A DNA stretch of 32,538 nucleotides from Flavobacteriaceae bacterium (GTDB lineage: Bacteria > Bacteroidota > Bacteroidia > Flavobacteriales > Flavobacteriaceae). Numbering within the stretch: the first letter of the stretch is position 1; every line of letters begins with the position of its first letter. The notes under the pieces were generated by a model that was not told the origin of the DNA, made no database searches, and worked only from the letters and a program-made list of their open reading frames with translations. Positions 3,798 through 21,887 of the stretch are shown piece after piece. Both the position numbers and the translations under genes were made by a program. The stretch lies in the NCBI GenBank assembly GCA_015490835.1, contig WFXA01000188.1, positions 1-32,538 of the forward strand, read 5' to 3'.

Positions 3798-5162
3798 TCA
3801 CTCCTTCACCACCTTAAAACTCCTAACGCCCTCTTGTGTAATTAGTTTTACCAAGTAAACACTGGGGTGTAAGTTGGACACATTTATGGTTTCATTATTA
3901 CCCTGCACTTGCAAAACTTCTTCGCCCAATACGTTATACACTTTTACCTGTTTTATTACCACATTATTAGGGTTGTTTATTTGTAAAACGTTGGTTGCCG
4001 GGTTTGGGTAAATACTTAGTGCTTGTAAGAGTTGGTCTTCAATACCGAGATAAGTAAGGTTTTTGTACCAGACTAAATCATACAGACCATTGTTGGCAGT
4101 TACAACATCTTTATACCCGTCGCCGTCTATATCTGCTCCTACAATAGATGACGACGCATAATCATCTATAATTATACGGTTACTAAAAGTGCCTGCCCCG
4201 TCTAAATTTTTAAACCACGCTATTTTACCATCGCCAACAAAGGTAGTTAAGATATCTAAATCACCGTCATTGTCGATATCTGAAACAAATATATCGCTTG
4301 GTCTGTATATATTTGCAATAACTTTTTTTATACTAAACGATCCTAATCCATCTAAATTTTCAAACCAAGAAATCTTATCTCCTCCCGCTTCAAAAATTAC
4401 CAAATCATTATCACCGTCTCCATCAATATCTTTTCCAGTTACAAGAGAAGCTCCAAAAGTATCATTTGTTATAAAATGAGTCTCAAAAATACCCAATCCA
4501 TTATTTTTATACCAATATAAACTATAATTATTAGGTGAATTACTTATAATATCATTATCACCATCTCCATCTATATCTATAGCGTCTATGGTGAAAACGC
4601 CTGTTGGTTCTACTGAAACATTTTGTTGATTTATAAACGACCCCATTCCGTTTAAGTTTCTATACCAGATTATACGATTCTCATCTCTCAAGGCTATAAT
4701 TACATCTTTCCCTATTAGCCCATCTATATCTGATGCTATCGCCTGCTTTGGATTTAAAACACCTGTAGCAATGATTATTTCCGAGCTAAACGCACCTTCT
4801 CCATCAAGGTTTTTGTACCATACCACTTTATTGTCGCTTGATGAAGTAGCCAAAACATCTAAATCACCATCCCCATCTAAATCTGCGATGCTTAGAGATT
4901 GTGTAAAAGTTAATGCTTGGGTTATATATTGTACACTACCAAATGTACCCTCTCCGTCTAAATTTTTATACCAAGCAATACTGTTAGCATTTTGTCCGGA
5001 GATTACCACGTCATTATCCCCATCATTATCTATATCTGCTGTAATTACTTTTGTTATTTGAAAAGGAAGTGCGCTAATAAGTACAGAATCTCCAAAACCG
5101 GATTGCGCTATGGTAATAAAAGGTAAAAAACAACTTATGCAACTTAGAAATAAACGTTTCAT
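3798..5162 (-). CDS. Secreted FG-GAP/VCBS seven-repeat protein with T9SS sorting domain
   Basis: This 454-residue protein has a signal peptide (about 1-19, ITIA|Q). Seven repeats of roughly 48 residues follow (about 35-375), each with a DxDxDGDxD calcium-type loop and then WYKNLDGxGxF. Seven such units predict a seven-bladed beta-propeller. The C terminus (about 385-454) is a type-A T9SS sorting domain: LSIYPNPATNVLQI, VYNVLGEEV, SVYLVKLITQEG. The protein should therefore be exported through Sec and then T9SS to the cell surface or medium. Its ligand or role is unknown; such propellers serve in adhesion and carbohydrate binding. The third repeat has lost its calcium loop (DIDGLIGKD). The gene begins 18 nt after the terminator hairpin of the upstream protease gene, and no promoter box was found. 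Confidence 0.87.
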   Translation of the reverse strand: MKRLFLSCISCFLPFITIAQSGFGDSVLISALPFQITKVITADIDNDGDNDVVISGQNANSIAWYKNLDGEGTFGSVQYITQALTFTQSLSIADLDGDGDLDVLATSSSDNKVVWYKNLDGEGAFSSEIIIATGVLNPKQAIASDIDGLIGKDVIIALRDENRIIWYRNLNGMGSFINQQNVSVEPTGVFTIDAIDIDGDGDNDIISNSPNNYSLYWYKNNGLGIFETHFITNDTFGASLVTGKDIDGDGDNDLVIFEAGGDKISWFENLDGLGSFSIKKVIANIYRPSDIFVSDIDNDGDLDILTTFVGDGKIAWFKNLDGAGTFSNRIIIDDYASSSIVGADIDGDGYKDVVTANNGLYDLVWYKNLTYLGIEDQLLQALSIYPNPATNVLQINNPNNVVIKQVKVYNVLGEEVLQVQGNNETINVSNLHPSVYLVKLITQEGVRSFKVVKE

Positions 5163-5180
5163 AATGCTTAAAATTAAAAA

Positions 5181-5210
5181 CTTCTCCCGTTTCTAAAGTA
5201 CCGGGAGAAG
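5181..5210 (-). terminator. Intrinsic terminator after the M43 protease gene
   Basis: CTTCTCCCG (5181-5189) pairs perfectly with CGGGAGAAG (5202-5210) across a 12-nt loop. On the minus strand the hairpin is followed by TTTTTAATTTT. It lies 15 bp after the protease stop codon and just upstream of the FG-GAP start. Confidence 0.75.
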
Positions 5211-5225
5211 TAAAGTTACAAAAAA

Positions 5226-6755
5226 TTAATTGTTTTGTTTTATAATAACGGTTTGCTCTGTAGCTCCGTTGTTATATACCTTATCTATTTTATACAAACC
5301 GGGTTGTAGGTTTTGTATTAACTGCGGGTTGTTAATGGCGGTAGAGTCTTGGGGCATAACCGTTACGTTGGTATTTAACACTCCGTCGTTAAACTTAGTA
5401 ACTATACCACTGCCCGGTTTTTTATTATAGTTGTCGTAACACTTACGGGGTTGCGGGAATACTTGACTGCCGTTAAGCTCGTGTTTAATCCAAATAGCAC
5501 TATGATTGGGGTGGGTGATACTACCGTAGTTGGTTTCGGTTTTAGCCACATTTAGTAAAATGGTGTTTAGATTATAGGAGAATGATACATCGTAATAATC
5601 TGCCGGTTGCGGGTAATTGCCGCTACACTCTACAAAACGATATTCAAAACCGGGTTGAAACAAAGGCGTATATTGGTGTAGGTCGTACGGTCCGGCAAGA
5701 TAATATTCGCCGGCATAAGGTTCGTATAAAGAAGGAACATCGGTTAAGGTATTTATAAGCACCGGTGCCGATTGTATTTTTTCTCGCATACGTATGCCTT
5801 GTCCGGGAGACACATACGTGGTTTGACATAGATACGCATTACCCATAACGTTTATGACGTCTTCATAATCTATTTCAAGTTTATATAATACACCGACATT
5901 ATCCATCTCCGGACTACTTTGATCATACGTACAATCGGGTAATATATACGGATAACAAGCGGGGTCTGTACCTGAGCACGAATTTAATTTAAAACCAGGG
6001 TTAGCTGCCGTATCTACTACGCGATCGCCGGCAGTTGTGGCATTAAAATTGGGGTCGTTGGGGTCTCGGGTAACATGTTCGTTTGAAGAACGTGTGTGCG
6101 ACAAACCTAAGGCATGTCCCATTTCATGCACCAACCCTTTACCTTCTGTTGCTCCTACCTGTACTGATTTAATAACTAATTTATTAGCTCCAATACTTTG
6201 AGCGACACCTCCAAAAGATTCATTCCATGAAGTAATATAAATATTTATCGCATTTGGATCGTTGTAGTTGCTATTGCTACTTACATAATTAAAAAAAGGA
6301 CCTATCTGACAACGATTTAGTTTAGAATATCCGTCCGGGTCAGATCCCGGATAGGTTACACAGCCATACTGTATACAATTCCCGTTTGCATCCCAATTTA
6401 TGCATTCATATCTACTATCTATTACGTCCGGTGGACTATCTATTTCTTGCCATCCTCGATATTTAAAGAATATATTAAACTGGTTAAACTCAATATTCAG
6501 CCGTGCAATATGTTCTAATGTTTGGTTAGGGTCAAAATCTGTATAAAACTCTCCATTGGGTCCGTTTACTTTCCAAAATTTTACATTAAGCACTAATGGG
6601 TCTGCACTAGTATAAAGACTTGGGTTTACCGAATAACTAAAAATACCTTGTGGATCTGGTGCTGTGTTTTCTTCCGTTGCACACTCTACATATTCTTGCG
6701 AAAATGTGAACCAAGATATGCTTACAAATAATAAAGTAATAATTTTTGTTTTCAT
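5226..6755 (-). CDS. Secreted M43-type (pappalysin-like) zinc metalloprotease
   Basis: This 509-residue protein has a signal peptide (about 1-19, FTFS|Q). The zinc site is HEMGHALGLSHT (His210, Glu211, His214, His220), followed by the Met-turn INVMGNAY (Met304). This is the metzincin arrangement of family M43, represented by pappalysin, ulilysin and flavobacterial homologues. Many Cys residues between 118 and 275 suggest disulphides in an exported enzyme. Substrates are presumably proteins outside the cell. The last 35 residues (LQPGLYKIDKVYNNG, then TVIIKQ) resemble only the final strands of a T9SS sorting domain; the usual YPNP start is missing. No standard -7 box was found upstream, but a 24-bp palindrome lies 41 bp before the start. 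Confidence 0.85.
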   Translation of the reverse strand: MKTKIITLLFVSISWFTFSQEYVECATEENTAPDPQGIFSYSVNPSLYTSADPLVLNVKFWKVNGPNGEFYTDFDPNQTLEHIARLNIEFNQFNIFFKYRGWQEIDSPPDVIDSRYECINWDANGNCIQYGCVTYPGSDPDGYSKLNRCQIGPFFNYVSSNSNYNDPNAINIYITSWNESFGGVAQSIGANKLVIKSVQVGATEGKGLVHEMGHALGLSHTRSSNEHVTRDPNDPNFNATTAGDRVVDTAANPGFKLNSCSGTDPACYPYILPDCTYDQSSPEMDNVGVLYKLEIDYEDVINVMGNAYLCQTTYVSPGQGIRMREKIQSAPVLINTLTDVPSLYEPYAGEYYLAGPYDLHQYTPLFQPGFEYRFVECSGNYPQPADYYDVSFSYNLNTILLNVAKTETNYGSITHPNHSAIWIKHELNGSQVFPQPRKCYDNYNKKPGSGIVTKFNDGVLNTNVTVMPQDSTAINNPQLIQNLQPGLYKIDKVYNNGATEQTVIIKQNN

Positions 6756-6795
6756 AAATTCTAATTTTTAAAATTAAACAATACAACTCTTGTCA

Positions 6796-6819
6796 CAGTA
6801 CCGGTTGCAACCGGTACTG
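6796..6819. repeat. Perfect 24-bp palindrome
   Basis: CAGTACCGGTTG is followed directly by its exact reverse complement CAACCGGTACTG. It is GC-rich for this genome and has no loop, which fits a dimeric regulator site better than a terminator. It lies 41 bp upstream of the protease start codon. Confidence 0.6.
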
Positions 6820-6942
6820 CAAAATGGCTTGCAAGCATTTTTACTTTTTCGGGGAATTGTGGGCTAAGCTATAAAAAAAAAAATGAGACTCTACAAATTT
6901 TTTGTGTTAAAATTTTGATTTACAGCCGATTGTATGGTTTTT

Positions 6943-6966
6943 CCTTACTTTTAGTAAGGTTTTTTT
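6943..6966 (+). terminator. Orphan plus-strand terminator-like hairpin
   Basis: CCTTACT (6943-6949) and AGTAAGG (6953-6959) form a 7-bp stem with a TTT loop, followed at once by seven or more T residues. The shape is that of a plus-strand intrinsic terminator, but no plus-strand gene lies upstream of it; the neighbouring protease gene is divergent. Confidence 0.5.
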
Positions 6967-7058
6967 ATAGAGTAGCTGTGATATTTTTTCATTACTAAAT
7001 ATAACCCCAAACTTATAAGGTCTAAAAAAAGAATAACACAAATACCGTGTTTTTTAGT

Positions 7059-7066
7059 TACTTTTG
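7059..7066 (+). promoter_or_regulatory. metG promoter, -7 box TACTTTTG
   Basis: It matches TAnnTTTG exactly, 17 nt before the metG ATG at 7084, giving a leader of roughly 10 nt. No TTG is present 19 bp upstream. Confidence 0.5.
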
Positions 7067-7083
7067 CTTTTTTAAACCACAAC

Positions 7084-9150
7084 ATGAAACAAGCACCTAA
7101 AAGATATACTATAACCGCCGCATTACCGTATGTAAACGGACCCATTCACATTGGACACCTCGCCGGTGTATATGTTCCGGCAGATATTTATGCGCGTTAT
7201 CAAAGACTTCAAAACAAAGATGTCCTATTTGTTTGCGGAAGCGACGAACACGGCGTACCCATTACCATAAAAGCAAAAAAAGAAGGAATAACACCTCAAG
7301 AAGTAGTAGATAAATACCATAAAATAGTAAAAAAATCATTTGAAGATTTTGGTATTTCATTCGATAATTATTCGCGTACTTCGGATAGAATACATCATAA
7401 AACTGCTTCCGATTTTTTTAAAAAATTGTATAAAAAAGGGAAGTTTATAGAGCAAACTACAGAGCAGTTGTATGATGAAGAAGCGCAGCAGTTTTTGGCA
7501 GACCGCTTTGTGGTAGGCACGTGCCCAAAATGCGGTAACGAAGAAAGCTATGGCGACCAATGCGAAGCTTGCGGAACCTCGCACAACGCCACCGATTTAA
7601 TAAATCCTAAATCTGCTATTACCGGAAACACGCCAACCCTTAAAAAAACCAAACACTGGTTTTTACCGTTAGACCAATACCAAGACTGGTTAAAACAATG
7701 GATTTCAGAACAACATAAAAACGACTGGAAAACCAATGTGCTAGGGCAATGCAAATCATGGTTGGACGATGGATTACGACCTAGAGCCGTTACAAGAGAT
7801 TTGGATTGGGGAATTCCCGTTCCGGTGGAAGGTGCCGAAGGAAAAGTATTATATGTTTGGTTCGATGCGCCTATCGGGTATATCTCATCCACAAAAGAAT
7901 GGGCAGAAAGAGAAGGTAAAGATTGGGAACCCTATTGGAAAAATGATGACACAAAACTATTGCATTTTATAGGAAAGGACAACATCGTTTTTCACTGTAT
8001 TATTTTTCCGTCTATGCTTAAAGCCGTAGGAAGTTTTATCTTACCCGAAAACGTACCGGCAAACGAGTTTTTAAACCTCGAAGGAAACAAACTTTCTACC
8101 AGTAAAAACTGGGCGGTTTGGTTACACGAATACCTCGAAGATTTCCCAAATCAACAAGATGTACTGCGTTATGTGCTAACGGCAAACGCCCCAGAAACCA
8201 AAGACAACGACTTTACTTGGGTAGATTTTCAAGCAAGAAACAACAACGAGCTCGTAGCTGTTTTTGGTAATTTTATCAATCGCGTGGTGGTGCTTACCCA
8301 TAAATATTATGATGGCATTGTGCCTACTCCTTCAAATTTTTCTGAAATAGACAAAGAGGTGCTAACACAACTGCAAAATTATCCCAAGGTAATAGCAGAT
8401 AGTATAGAACGGTATCGTTTTAGAGAAGCACAAACCCAAATGATGAATGTGGCACGGTTGGGAAATAAATACTTGGCAGACGAAGAACCTTGGAAAACCA
8501 TAAAAACCGATGAACAACGCACAAAAACCGTGATGTATGTTGCTTTGCAAATCGCTTCGGCACTATCGGTATTAAGCGAACCTTTTTTGCCGTTTACTTC
8601 AGAAAAGTTAAAAAATATACTCCGGTTAAAAAATTCTTTCGTGTGGAAAGCTATTTCTGAAAAAGAAGTTTTAGTACCGGCTGGACATGCCATAGGAAAA
8701 GCCGAATTGCTTTTTAGTAAAATAGAAGACGAGCAAGTTCAACAACAATTAGATAAATTGGAAGCAACCAAAAAACAAAATCTAATGGAAAAAACACACC
8801 CTCAAATAACACCTCAAAAAGATACCGTTCAATTTGATGATTTTACCAAACTCGATATGCGTGTAGGAACCATCATTGAGGCTGAAAAAATGCCTAAAAC
8901 CAAAAAACTATTGGTTTTAAAGGTAGATACCGGAATAGACGTAAGAACCATTGTATCGGGAATAGCCGAAAGTTTTTCGCCGGAAGAAATAGTGGGTAAA
9001 AAAGTAACGGTTTTGGTTAATCTTGCTCCCAGAAAATTACGAGGAGTAGAAAGTCAAGGAATGATTTTAATGACCGAAACACCCGATGGCTCATTGGTTT
9101 TTATCAATCCGGATAAGGACTGCATAAGTAATGGATTAACTATAAGCTAG
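7084..9150 (+). CDS. metG: Methionyl-tRNA synthetase
   Basis: This enzyme charges tRNA(Met) and initiator tRNA with methionine in the cytoplasm. At 688 residues it is the long, dimeric form. The class I HIGH signature is at 22-25 in [15 protein letters not shown] zinc knuckle has Cys147, Cys150, Cys160 and Cys163 (CPKC...CEAC), and the KMSKS loop is the variant KLSTS (336-340). The anticodon-binding helical domain follows, and from about residue 585 there is an EMAP-II/Arc1p-like tRNA-binding OB fold ([20 protein letters not shown]). All core motifs are intact. The ATG at 7084 gives the expected [16 protein letters not shown] start. The gene converges with the delta-60 protein gene, leaving only 19 bp between stop codons. 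Confidence 0.97.
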
Positions 9151-20501: not shown

Positions 20502-21887
20502 TTAGTTTTTCACTAATCTTATTTCTACTCTTCTGTTTAAAGCTCTTCCGGCTTTAGTTTTGTTAGAAGCAATAGGTCTATCTTCTCCAAAACCTTGTGC
20601 GCTTAAATGAGATGATGCAACTCCGTTAGAAATTAAGTATTGCATTACAGAGTTTGCTCTATCGTCAGAAAGTTTCATATTTGAGCTTGCAGAACCCACA
20701 CTATCTGTGTGTCCTTCAATTGCAAAATGAGCGTTAGGGTACTCTTTCATAATAGCAACAATATCGTTTAATACTTTGTAAGATTGTTCTTTTATAGAAG
20801 ATTTTCCTGTATCGAATAATATTGTTTTAGCATACTCATTTAAAGTTTTAACTATATCTTCGGTTACTTCTGGACAACCTTTGTTTGCAACTGTACCTTT
20901 TACTTCTGGACAGTTATCGTCTTTATCTAACACGCCATCACCGTCACCATCTTTCCAAGGACAACCTTTGTTAGCTCTTGGTCCGGCTTCGTTAGGACAA
21001 GCATCTTCGCTGTCTTTAATACCGTCGCCATCAGAATCTGGACATCCGTTTAGAGCTGCAATACCGGGAGTATTAGGACATGCGTCTTGAGGATCGGCAA
21101 TACCGTCACCGTCTGTATCTGCACAACCATTAAATTCGGCTACACCGGGAGTGTTAGGACAAGCATCGTTTCTATCTTCGATACCGTCTCCATCTGTATC
21201 AGGACAACCATTAAATTCCGGAAGACCCGGAGTTTCAGGACATTCATCATCTTGGTCGTATATTCCATCACCATCTGTATCTTTTCCACCAAATTTAAAT
21301 TTAACCCCAACTACGTGTTGGAAATGTGTTGCACCGTAGTTTTCTTCAAACGCATGTTTGTAAGTAGATTGGAATTGAAGTGCTAAACTTTCTGAAAGCC
21401 AAAAATCAACTCCAGCGATAACGTTAGCTGTTCCATATCCTATATCATCAACCCAAGTGTAACCACCACCAATACCAAGATTAGGGTCAAACCATCCTGT
21501 TTTTAGCATTTGCCCTAAAGCATATTTTATTTCTCCATCTACTGAATAGTAAGACATACCGTCTACTCTTGTGTCTCCCACTTTTGTGATTTTGTTTACG
21601 GCTCCAGCGGCACCAAAAGTAAAACCACTTCCTATATATCTATTTATACTAACTCGAGAAAGTAGAGGAGCTATATTATAGTGGTCATTTTGGTTAAAAT
21701 ACTCGTCAAAAATATCTCCTTTCGTAGCTTCTCCAAATCTGCCGGTATCACTAATACCAATAGGATAAAAGTCTACACCATTAACCCCAACTCCAATAGC
21801 CCAGGGGTTGTTCTGGTCTTGTGCATTTACCGTACTTAGTCCTAAAACTAGTAGGGAAGCAACTAAAAATTTGCTAAGATGTTTCAT
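20502..21887 (-). CDS. OmpA family outer-membrane protein with thrombospondin type-3 repeats
   Basis: This 461-residue protein anchors the outer membrane to peptidoglycan. It has a signal peptide (1-22, cleavage at VNA|Q), an N-terminal beta-barrel (about 25-200), and five calcium-binding TSP3 repeats (203-339, consensus DTDGDGIxDxxDxCPxTPG). The C-terminal OmpA peptidoglycan-binding domain (about 350-461) has [24 protein letters not shown] (residues 391-400) and LSDDRANSV with the conserved Arg410. The last residues are [10 protein letters not shown]. It is a single-gene unit with the best promoter of the window and a strong terminator, which suggests an abundant surface protein. Confidence 0.94.
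20871..21281 (-). repeat. Five TSP3-coding tandem repeats (~81 bp) in the OmpA gene
   Basis: The DNA repeats with a period close to 81 bp, each unit encoding DGDGIxDxxDxCP and a GCP-type end. The second and third units are the most alike. The fifth carries an extra Asp-Gly (DGDGDGVLD). The repeats are coding and in frame, so recombination between them would change the length of the linker. Confidence 0.8.

Follow-up and report, generated by a model that had tools for sequence, protein, structure and literature searches.

The perfect 24-bp palindrome upstream of a secreted protease gene, at positions 6796-6819 of the 32,538-nucleotide stretch of Flavobacteriaceae DNA analyzed here in its entirety (the window), appears from sequence comparison to be the only perfect form of a hairpin that is imperfect elsewhere and lies within a longer dispersed module. 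According to our preferred reading, to which we assign a probability of about 0.5, it is a stem-loop (termed here H2) of a 5' untranslated leader, within a promoter-leader module that stands before several unlike genes. We think it more likely that the palindrome works at the RNA level, in the message, than that it is bound as DNA by a regulator; it is probably part of the sequence that controls the protease gene. The copies of the module, their positions, the differences in cargo and between sites, and the ability of the leader to fold are direct observations.

The palindrome, CAGTACCGGTTGCAACCGGTACTG, is exact and consists of CAGTACCGGTTG and CAACCGGTACTG at zero spacing; eight bases beyond it lies a second palindrome, GCTTGCAAGC (6828-6837), which confirms both sites of the original prediction. 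The opinion that the longer one is improbable by chance also holds: base composition predicts 0.006 zero-gap palindromes with 12-bp arms per window, and one was found. No further zero-gap palindrome with arms of at least 9 bp was found in the window, in which the same search returned 20 other inverted repeats. When up to 3 mismatches are allowed, the window contains the palindrome sequence a single time, and none of 100 dinucleotide shuffles contains it. With the protease start at 6755, the palindrome lies 41-64 bp and GCTTGCAAGC 73-82 bp ahead of it, compared to the 41-80 bp given originally for the pair. The reported echo of the centre motif between the two sites is real, in that TTGCAA is common to GGTTGCAACC and GCTTGCAAGC, and it is invariant in all 10 leaders that we aligned. 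A different kind of repeat, imperfect and direct (about 72% identical), is present at 20991-21301 inside a coding region.

The cargo of the window copy comprises two genes on the minus strand, a secreted metzincin-type protease with the motif HEMGHALGLSH (5226-6755) and an FG-GAP protein with a type IX secretion tail (Por_Secre_tail; 3798-5162), whose 3' end (3800-4012) is common to other loci. Searches of Pfam and NCBIfam gave only sub-threshold metzincin matches for the protease and no named leader; the homologue on contig C96 of genome G011, on the other hand, passes the cut-off for Peptidase_M43, which the window protease does not. A PDB sequence search with the window protease returned nothing up to E 1. 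Between the two cargo genes there is a stem-loop (5180-5211, minus strand), and stem-loops of unrelated sequence have the same placement in G009, G011:C96 and G000:C114 (G000 being the genome from which the window comes). The divergent neighbor on the plus strand is the housekeeping gene metG (7084-9150, start at 7084).

The whole module, delineated with a 401-base query, is about 230 bp long (approximately 6735-6965, minus strand) and includes the gene's first codons. Its own genome, an assembly of 276 contigs that is 94% complete, contains four complete copies, namely C188 (the window), C256 (93% identity), C114 (86%) and C111 (83%), as well as a truncated copy comprising the left part only (C62) and one that ends at a contig end (C178). 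The palindrome pattern, with at most 3 mismatches, was detected at four sites of this genome, and the reversed pattern used as a control at none. Among the 19 genomes of the genus, long copies are present in three (i.e. two of the 18 besides its own): G009 has one and G011 has four (C75, C109, C85 and C96), of which C85 is cut by a contig end. Matches were obtained in eight genus genomes, but in five of these (G003, G007, G010, G014 and G018) they are short stretches only and were left out of the count of long copies. A scan of named Flavobacteriaceae genomes with a 21-base core, which may omit the own genome, gave five stretches in two assemblies, JALWKK and JALWYP (taken as G011 and G009). 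A family-wide DNA search (397 genomes, two candidates scored in each) gave matches in 102 genomes, those listed outside the own genome being shorter than 60 bases. The exact core is absent from the viral contig collection, and the listings of the literature searches show no description of the module.

All eight copies with an assembled 3' side immediately precede a start codon, in most cases that of a gene for a secreted protein, and in five of them the protein begins with MK(T/S)KIIT(L/F); by eye, C256 has a lipoprotein-like start, while C75 and C109 have broken frames. Cargo frames are broken in four of the eight, i.e. C114 (one TAG), C256 (TAA), G011:C109 (two TAA) and G011:C75 (shared start out of frame), where assembly error is possible. 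Since half of the cargo frames are broken, some copies of the module may be unused.

Dispersed copies raise the question of a non-autonomous mobile repeat akin to REP or MITE elements, and the original prediction had named numerous dispersed intergenic copies in the host genome as an observation that would speak against it. Dispersed copies do exist, so this objection applies in part, but just four are complete, all in the same orientation before start codons. As in REP elements, so far as these are described in the part of PMC2817692 considered here, we deal with dispersed extragenic palindromes; REP elements, however, exceed 100 per genome, whereas the module has few copies and a fixed orientation, and its palindrome is part of a 230-bp unit. 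The restriction of long copies to three of the 19 genus genomes and an empty site downstream of purD in G009 (see below) would fit a mobile repeat, but the low copy number, the single orientation towards start codons, the fact that the unit inserted near purD includes cargo, and the lack of terminal inverted repeats or clear target duplications on inspection by eye make us regard this explanation as improbable.

In gene direction, the aligned copies present the hairpin CCTTACNAAAAGTAAGG with about 45 bp following it, then AAATTTG with a poly-T tract and TAGCTTAG. A C-rich stretch leads to GCTTGCAAGC and the palindrome region, and between the latter and ATGAAA there is an AU-rich tract. We propose to read this minus-strand order as an optional left block with a hairpin, a -33-like TTTG, a poly-T spacer, the -7-like TAGCTTAG, the C-rich stretch, a possible small hairpin H1 around GCTTGCAAGC (6822-6840), the palindrome as H2 (with an extra G-U/G-C pair at 6795/6820), the AU-rich tract and the start codon. 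The sections of PMC6847099 and PMC9723704 considered here give TTTG/TAnnTTTG as the promoter consensus of flavobacteria and place its second box at -12 to -5; the box in the window (6864-6871) deviates from TAnnTTTG by one base, and C256 has CAGCTTAG instead. Eleven T residues (6873-6883) lie between it and the -33-like TTTG (6894-6897), and the distance from TTTG to the box, 22-26 in the G000 and G009 copies, is long. The tract comprises 9-15 T in eight of the nine close copies and is lost in G011:C96; slippage in a tract of such variable length between promoter-like boxes could alter promoter spacing. In the 16 protease rows from the genus with an assigned start (one of them known to be wrong), a run of at least 8 T was found in 10, TANNTT(T/A)G within 220 nt in 12, and both in 8, the box alone being expected by chance in about a quarter of such stretches according to a rough estimate. 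If TAGCTTAG functions as its position suggests, the transcript would start near 6859, just after the box, with the C-rich motif TCCCC (6851-6855) near the 5' end of the leader and the palindrome about 40 nt inside the transcript. The palindrome is probably in the 5' leader, because it lies downstream of the promoter-like box.

The left block (6899-6965) carries the hairpin CCTTACTAAAAGTAAGG (6943-6959) and occurs without the rest of the module in G000:C62. The hairpin and the adjacent 45 bp or so are missing from C114 and G011:C96, and C111 has a divergent hairpin only. As a candidate regulatory site of the whole genus this hairpin was dropped: occurrences with 0 mismatches are confined to G000, G009 and G011, and in the 16 other genomes we found 7 matches with up to 2 mismatches versus 14 for the reversed control. 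Inspection by eye revealed that the left part in G000:C62 (1912-2311; about 1501-1900 of locus L009) is followed by an apparent broken transposase fragment, and that in G000:C222 (33871-33903; locus L013) the left hairpin and poly-T lie upstream of a frame resembling an IS110-type transposase. On the plus strand, CCTTACTAAAAGTAAGG looks like a terminator and is the sole terminator-like site in a scan of 6650-7100. H2, on the protease strand, is followed by no U-run; although a strong hairpin in a leader is what one would expect of a transcription attenuator or intrinsic terminator, such a function for H2 is therefore very unlikely.

The original prediction interpreted the palindrome as the site of a dimeric regulator. 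Its more general part, a cis-acting role of the palindrome region for the protease gene, is plausible on comparative grounds, because several loci, and two relatives as well, have retained the region ahead of protease genes; the dimeric DNA-binding protein is less favored. To compare DNA symmetry with RNA pairing we used an alignment of ten leaders: the nine close copies, and a more distant one from G010, picked by eye, which belongs to a protease homologue. Symmetry at the DNA level is perfect in one of the ten, that of the window, while at the RNA level, with G-U counted, between 9 and 11 of the 11 stem pairs are retained in every leader. For a 13-pair stem, 90.0% of the cells are paired in the ten leaders, a value reached by none of 500 shuffles (slid versions of the stem give 27-62%), and five pairs are changed on both sides; an 18-pair version has 91.1% of cells paired, and with G010 included the two versions exceed all shuffles on nearly all measures. 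Four of those five double changes, however, are due to G010 alone, and the covariation signal depends on this single diverged leader. Without it, the nine close copies are 91.5% paired versus 90.9% in shuffles, a level reached by 324 of 500, and a single pair, in G009, is changed on both sides; slid versions pair less well (24-67%), as those of any palindrome would. The palindrome's ten pairs in ten rows amount to 81 Watson-Crick, 8 G-U, 1 A-C and 10 other cells; the 8 G-U cells, counted on the protease strand, are spread over four columns, compared to 11 mismatching cells, and there is no excess of G-U in the palindrome pairs above column shuffles (7 vs 7.1). With both pairing and G-U no higher than in shuffles, the nine close copies by themselves decide neither for RNA nor for DNA, and since they exhibit no covariation beyond shuffles, their broken symmetry could also be decay.

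The window leader folds with z = -3.90 in the sense direction, but its antisense strand, at -2.84, also folds well; other close copies fold weakly (z = -1.82, -1.54, -1.07 and -2.27 for the four of eight that were tested). The leader of G010 has its own 9-bp stem, GUACAAGAU/AUCUUGUGC, of unrelated sequence at the same place (z = -2.45). Run against the 19 genomes, a covariance model gave no match below E 0.03 apart from its own training rows, and its weaker matches looked unrelated, with the exception of G012:C3, which has a parallel leader. Rfam gave four matches in 6500-7200 of the window up to E 10, all below the gathering threshold. In G012, G014, G007 and G015 we observed a parallel leader family, with repeated poly-T/CTCCCC leaders of their own ahead of protease genes or of others whose signal-peptide starts are similar (loci L087, L097, L102, L107, L132, L092, L098 and L094).

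The separate stem of G010 in the corresponding place and the position after the promoter-like box favor RNA. They also count against the chief rival, an operator for a dimeric DNA-binding regulator, in which the sequence itself would be recognized: at G010 that sequence is different, and the symmetry is imperfect in the other nine leaders, even if a degree of asymmetry may be tolerated in operators. The location would still agree with a repressor that acts as a roadblock after the start, and the exact 24-bp symmetry in the window copy, the second palindrome nearby with its invariant TTGCAA, the recurrence before related genes and the missing covariation among close copies are all points in favor of an operator, which we consider rather unlikely on balance. 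We also considered control by a leader peptide, for a short frame (MLASHFAVPV...) overlaps both hairpins, its ATG is found in eight of the ten leaders, and in locus L003 it extends to 56 codons. Its initiation codon is replaced by TTG in C111 and by AAA in G010, stops occur after 10 codons in G010 and after 17 in G011:C109, and the end of the frame varies relative to the gene start; of all explanations considered here, we find this one the least credible.

A stem-loop in the 5' leader would have parallels among flavobacteria. Structured 5' leaders, including those of peptidase genes, are described in the part of PMC9723704 considered here, and the module, as we read it, resembles them by description in that a promoter of the TAnnTTTG type is followed by a hairpin leader and then by a peptidase gene; it differs from them, as portrayed in that part of the paper, in being multicopy with exchanged cargo. 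The same source reports that the small RNA Rfp18 of Flavobacterium psychrophilum affects the mRNA levels of two metalloproteases and controls, besides these, a predicted adhesin target, i.e. the same kinds of target gene as those of the module. A short motif common to the module leaders would suit contact with a common small RNA. Another candidate for such contact is the C-rich stretch. CTCCC, TCCCC or CTCCTC occurs within 110 nt of the assigned start in 13 of the 19 protease rows of the genus (obtained from 23 match rows by counting pieces of one gene once, and homologous rather than independent), one of the 13 having an unreliable start; of the remaining rows, three have no assignable start and three lack the motif, one of these with a wrong start. 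As a background, the motif was found within 200 nt in 12 of the 127 open frames with 120 codons or more from the window and ten fetched loci, or in 9 of 124 without three copies of the module, with the first ATG taken as the start and spurious frames included. Outside the genus it is present in 3 of 20 protease rows, five of which have no assignable start. A link between the C-rich stretch and control of the Rfp18 type is only a suggestion.

Comparison of chromosomal sites indicates that the module and its cargo come and go, and that the cargo at the metG site differs between sister species. At this site the genomes G000 and G009 share 94.8% identity along 2402 bp up to window position 6713, with 78-90% identity in the last 120 nt or so of the module. 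The identity of the protease genes then falls mostly to 35-75% per 60-nt window (one window has 85%) and rises to 93% over about 120 nt near the 3' end, and the FG-GAP genes are unlike until their 3' end (78-95%). Where the two proteases have the same residue, they use the same codon in 71 of 135 cases in the middle versus 38 of 48 at the C-terminal end. The metG-site cargo of G009 is closer to that of G011:C96 (86%) and G000:C114 (83%). This arrangement of unlike cargo between conserved ends is known from one genome pair, with the far flank in G009 unassembled, and no module precedes metG in G011. A purD match is present in 18 of the 19 genomes, and in the 0.2-1.5 kb examined downstream of it the module core occurs only in G000 and G011. 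In G009 the site is empty and the next matching flank follows after 15 bases. In G000 the purD flanks lie on C111 and C114, with module, cargo and type IX tail between them, the adjacency of the two contigs being deduced from G009. The purD flanks of G000 and G011 have 93-94% identity and the right halves of the module 86.8%, versus 96.1% and 97.4% for G011:C85 compared with two further copies in G011; for the left halves the figure is 66%, an unfair comparison as C111 seems to have no left block. The right half does not appear to be cleanly sorted by genome, e.g. that of C188 is 93.4% identical to G011:C85 and 90.9% to C256 from its own genome.

Exchange, repeated arrival or differential loss could each give this pattern. 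One possible explanation, which we hold tentatively and which is compatible with a leader role, is that the module serves mainly as a homology tract for cassette exchange, with the conserved 5' and 3' ends allowing homologous recombination to swap secreted-protein cargo between sites. The mosaic of like ends and unlike middles at the metG site, the codon agreement and the purD site that is filled in G000 and G011 and empty in G009 argue for it, but similar mosaics would result if old duplicates were lost differentially or if sequence came in from relatives not seen here, the right halves do not cluster cleanly by genome, and several cargos are hidden by contig ends. The vlp/vsp genes of Borrelia exchange cassettes through conserved upstream and downstream homology. 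The module is similar in that a conserved promoter, leader and signal-peptide 5' end and a conserved 3' end surround unlike cargo, while in contrast to the one expression site and silent copies of Borrelia it has several apparently promoter-bearing sites, known here from single assemblies. A more elaborate version, which we find doubtful as a whole, is a portable cassette for the expression of secreted proteins: a promoter with a length-variable poly-T spacer, a leader with two hairpins, the self-complementary UUGCAA loops of which engage in a kissing contact or bind the same partner, a signal-peptide start and conserved 3' tails, with cargo (proteases, lipoprotein, S74-type and FG-GAP proteins) exchanged between chromosomal sites under one common post-transcriptional control.

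Returning to the stem-loop in the leader, we envisage that the promoter-leader block, often with the signal-peptide start, would be the module placed ahead of several unlike genes. Transcription would begin near the position predicted above, H2 might protect the message or hold the AU-rich initiation tract open and thereby tune the output of secreted protein, and the shared UUGCAA or the C-rich stretch may be the point of contact with a partner, via a loop-loop contact, a protein or a small RNA. As a lesson for method, alignment with its homologues greatly changed the picture of a striking perfect palindrome, and the covariation that seemed to emerge hinged in turn on one distant row. If the leader reading is true, it names a concrete candidate leader for the post-transcriptional control of secreted proteases, and it would show how, in some Flavobacteriaceae, one leader can remain common to secreted proteases and surface proteins even as the cargo is changed.
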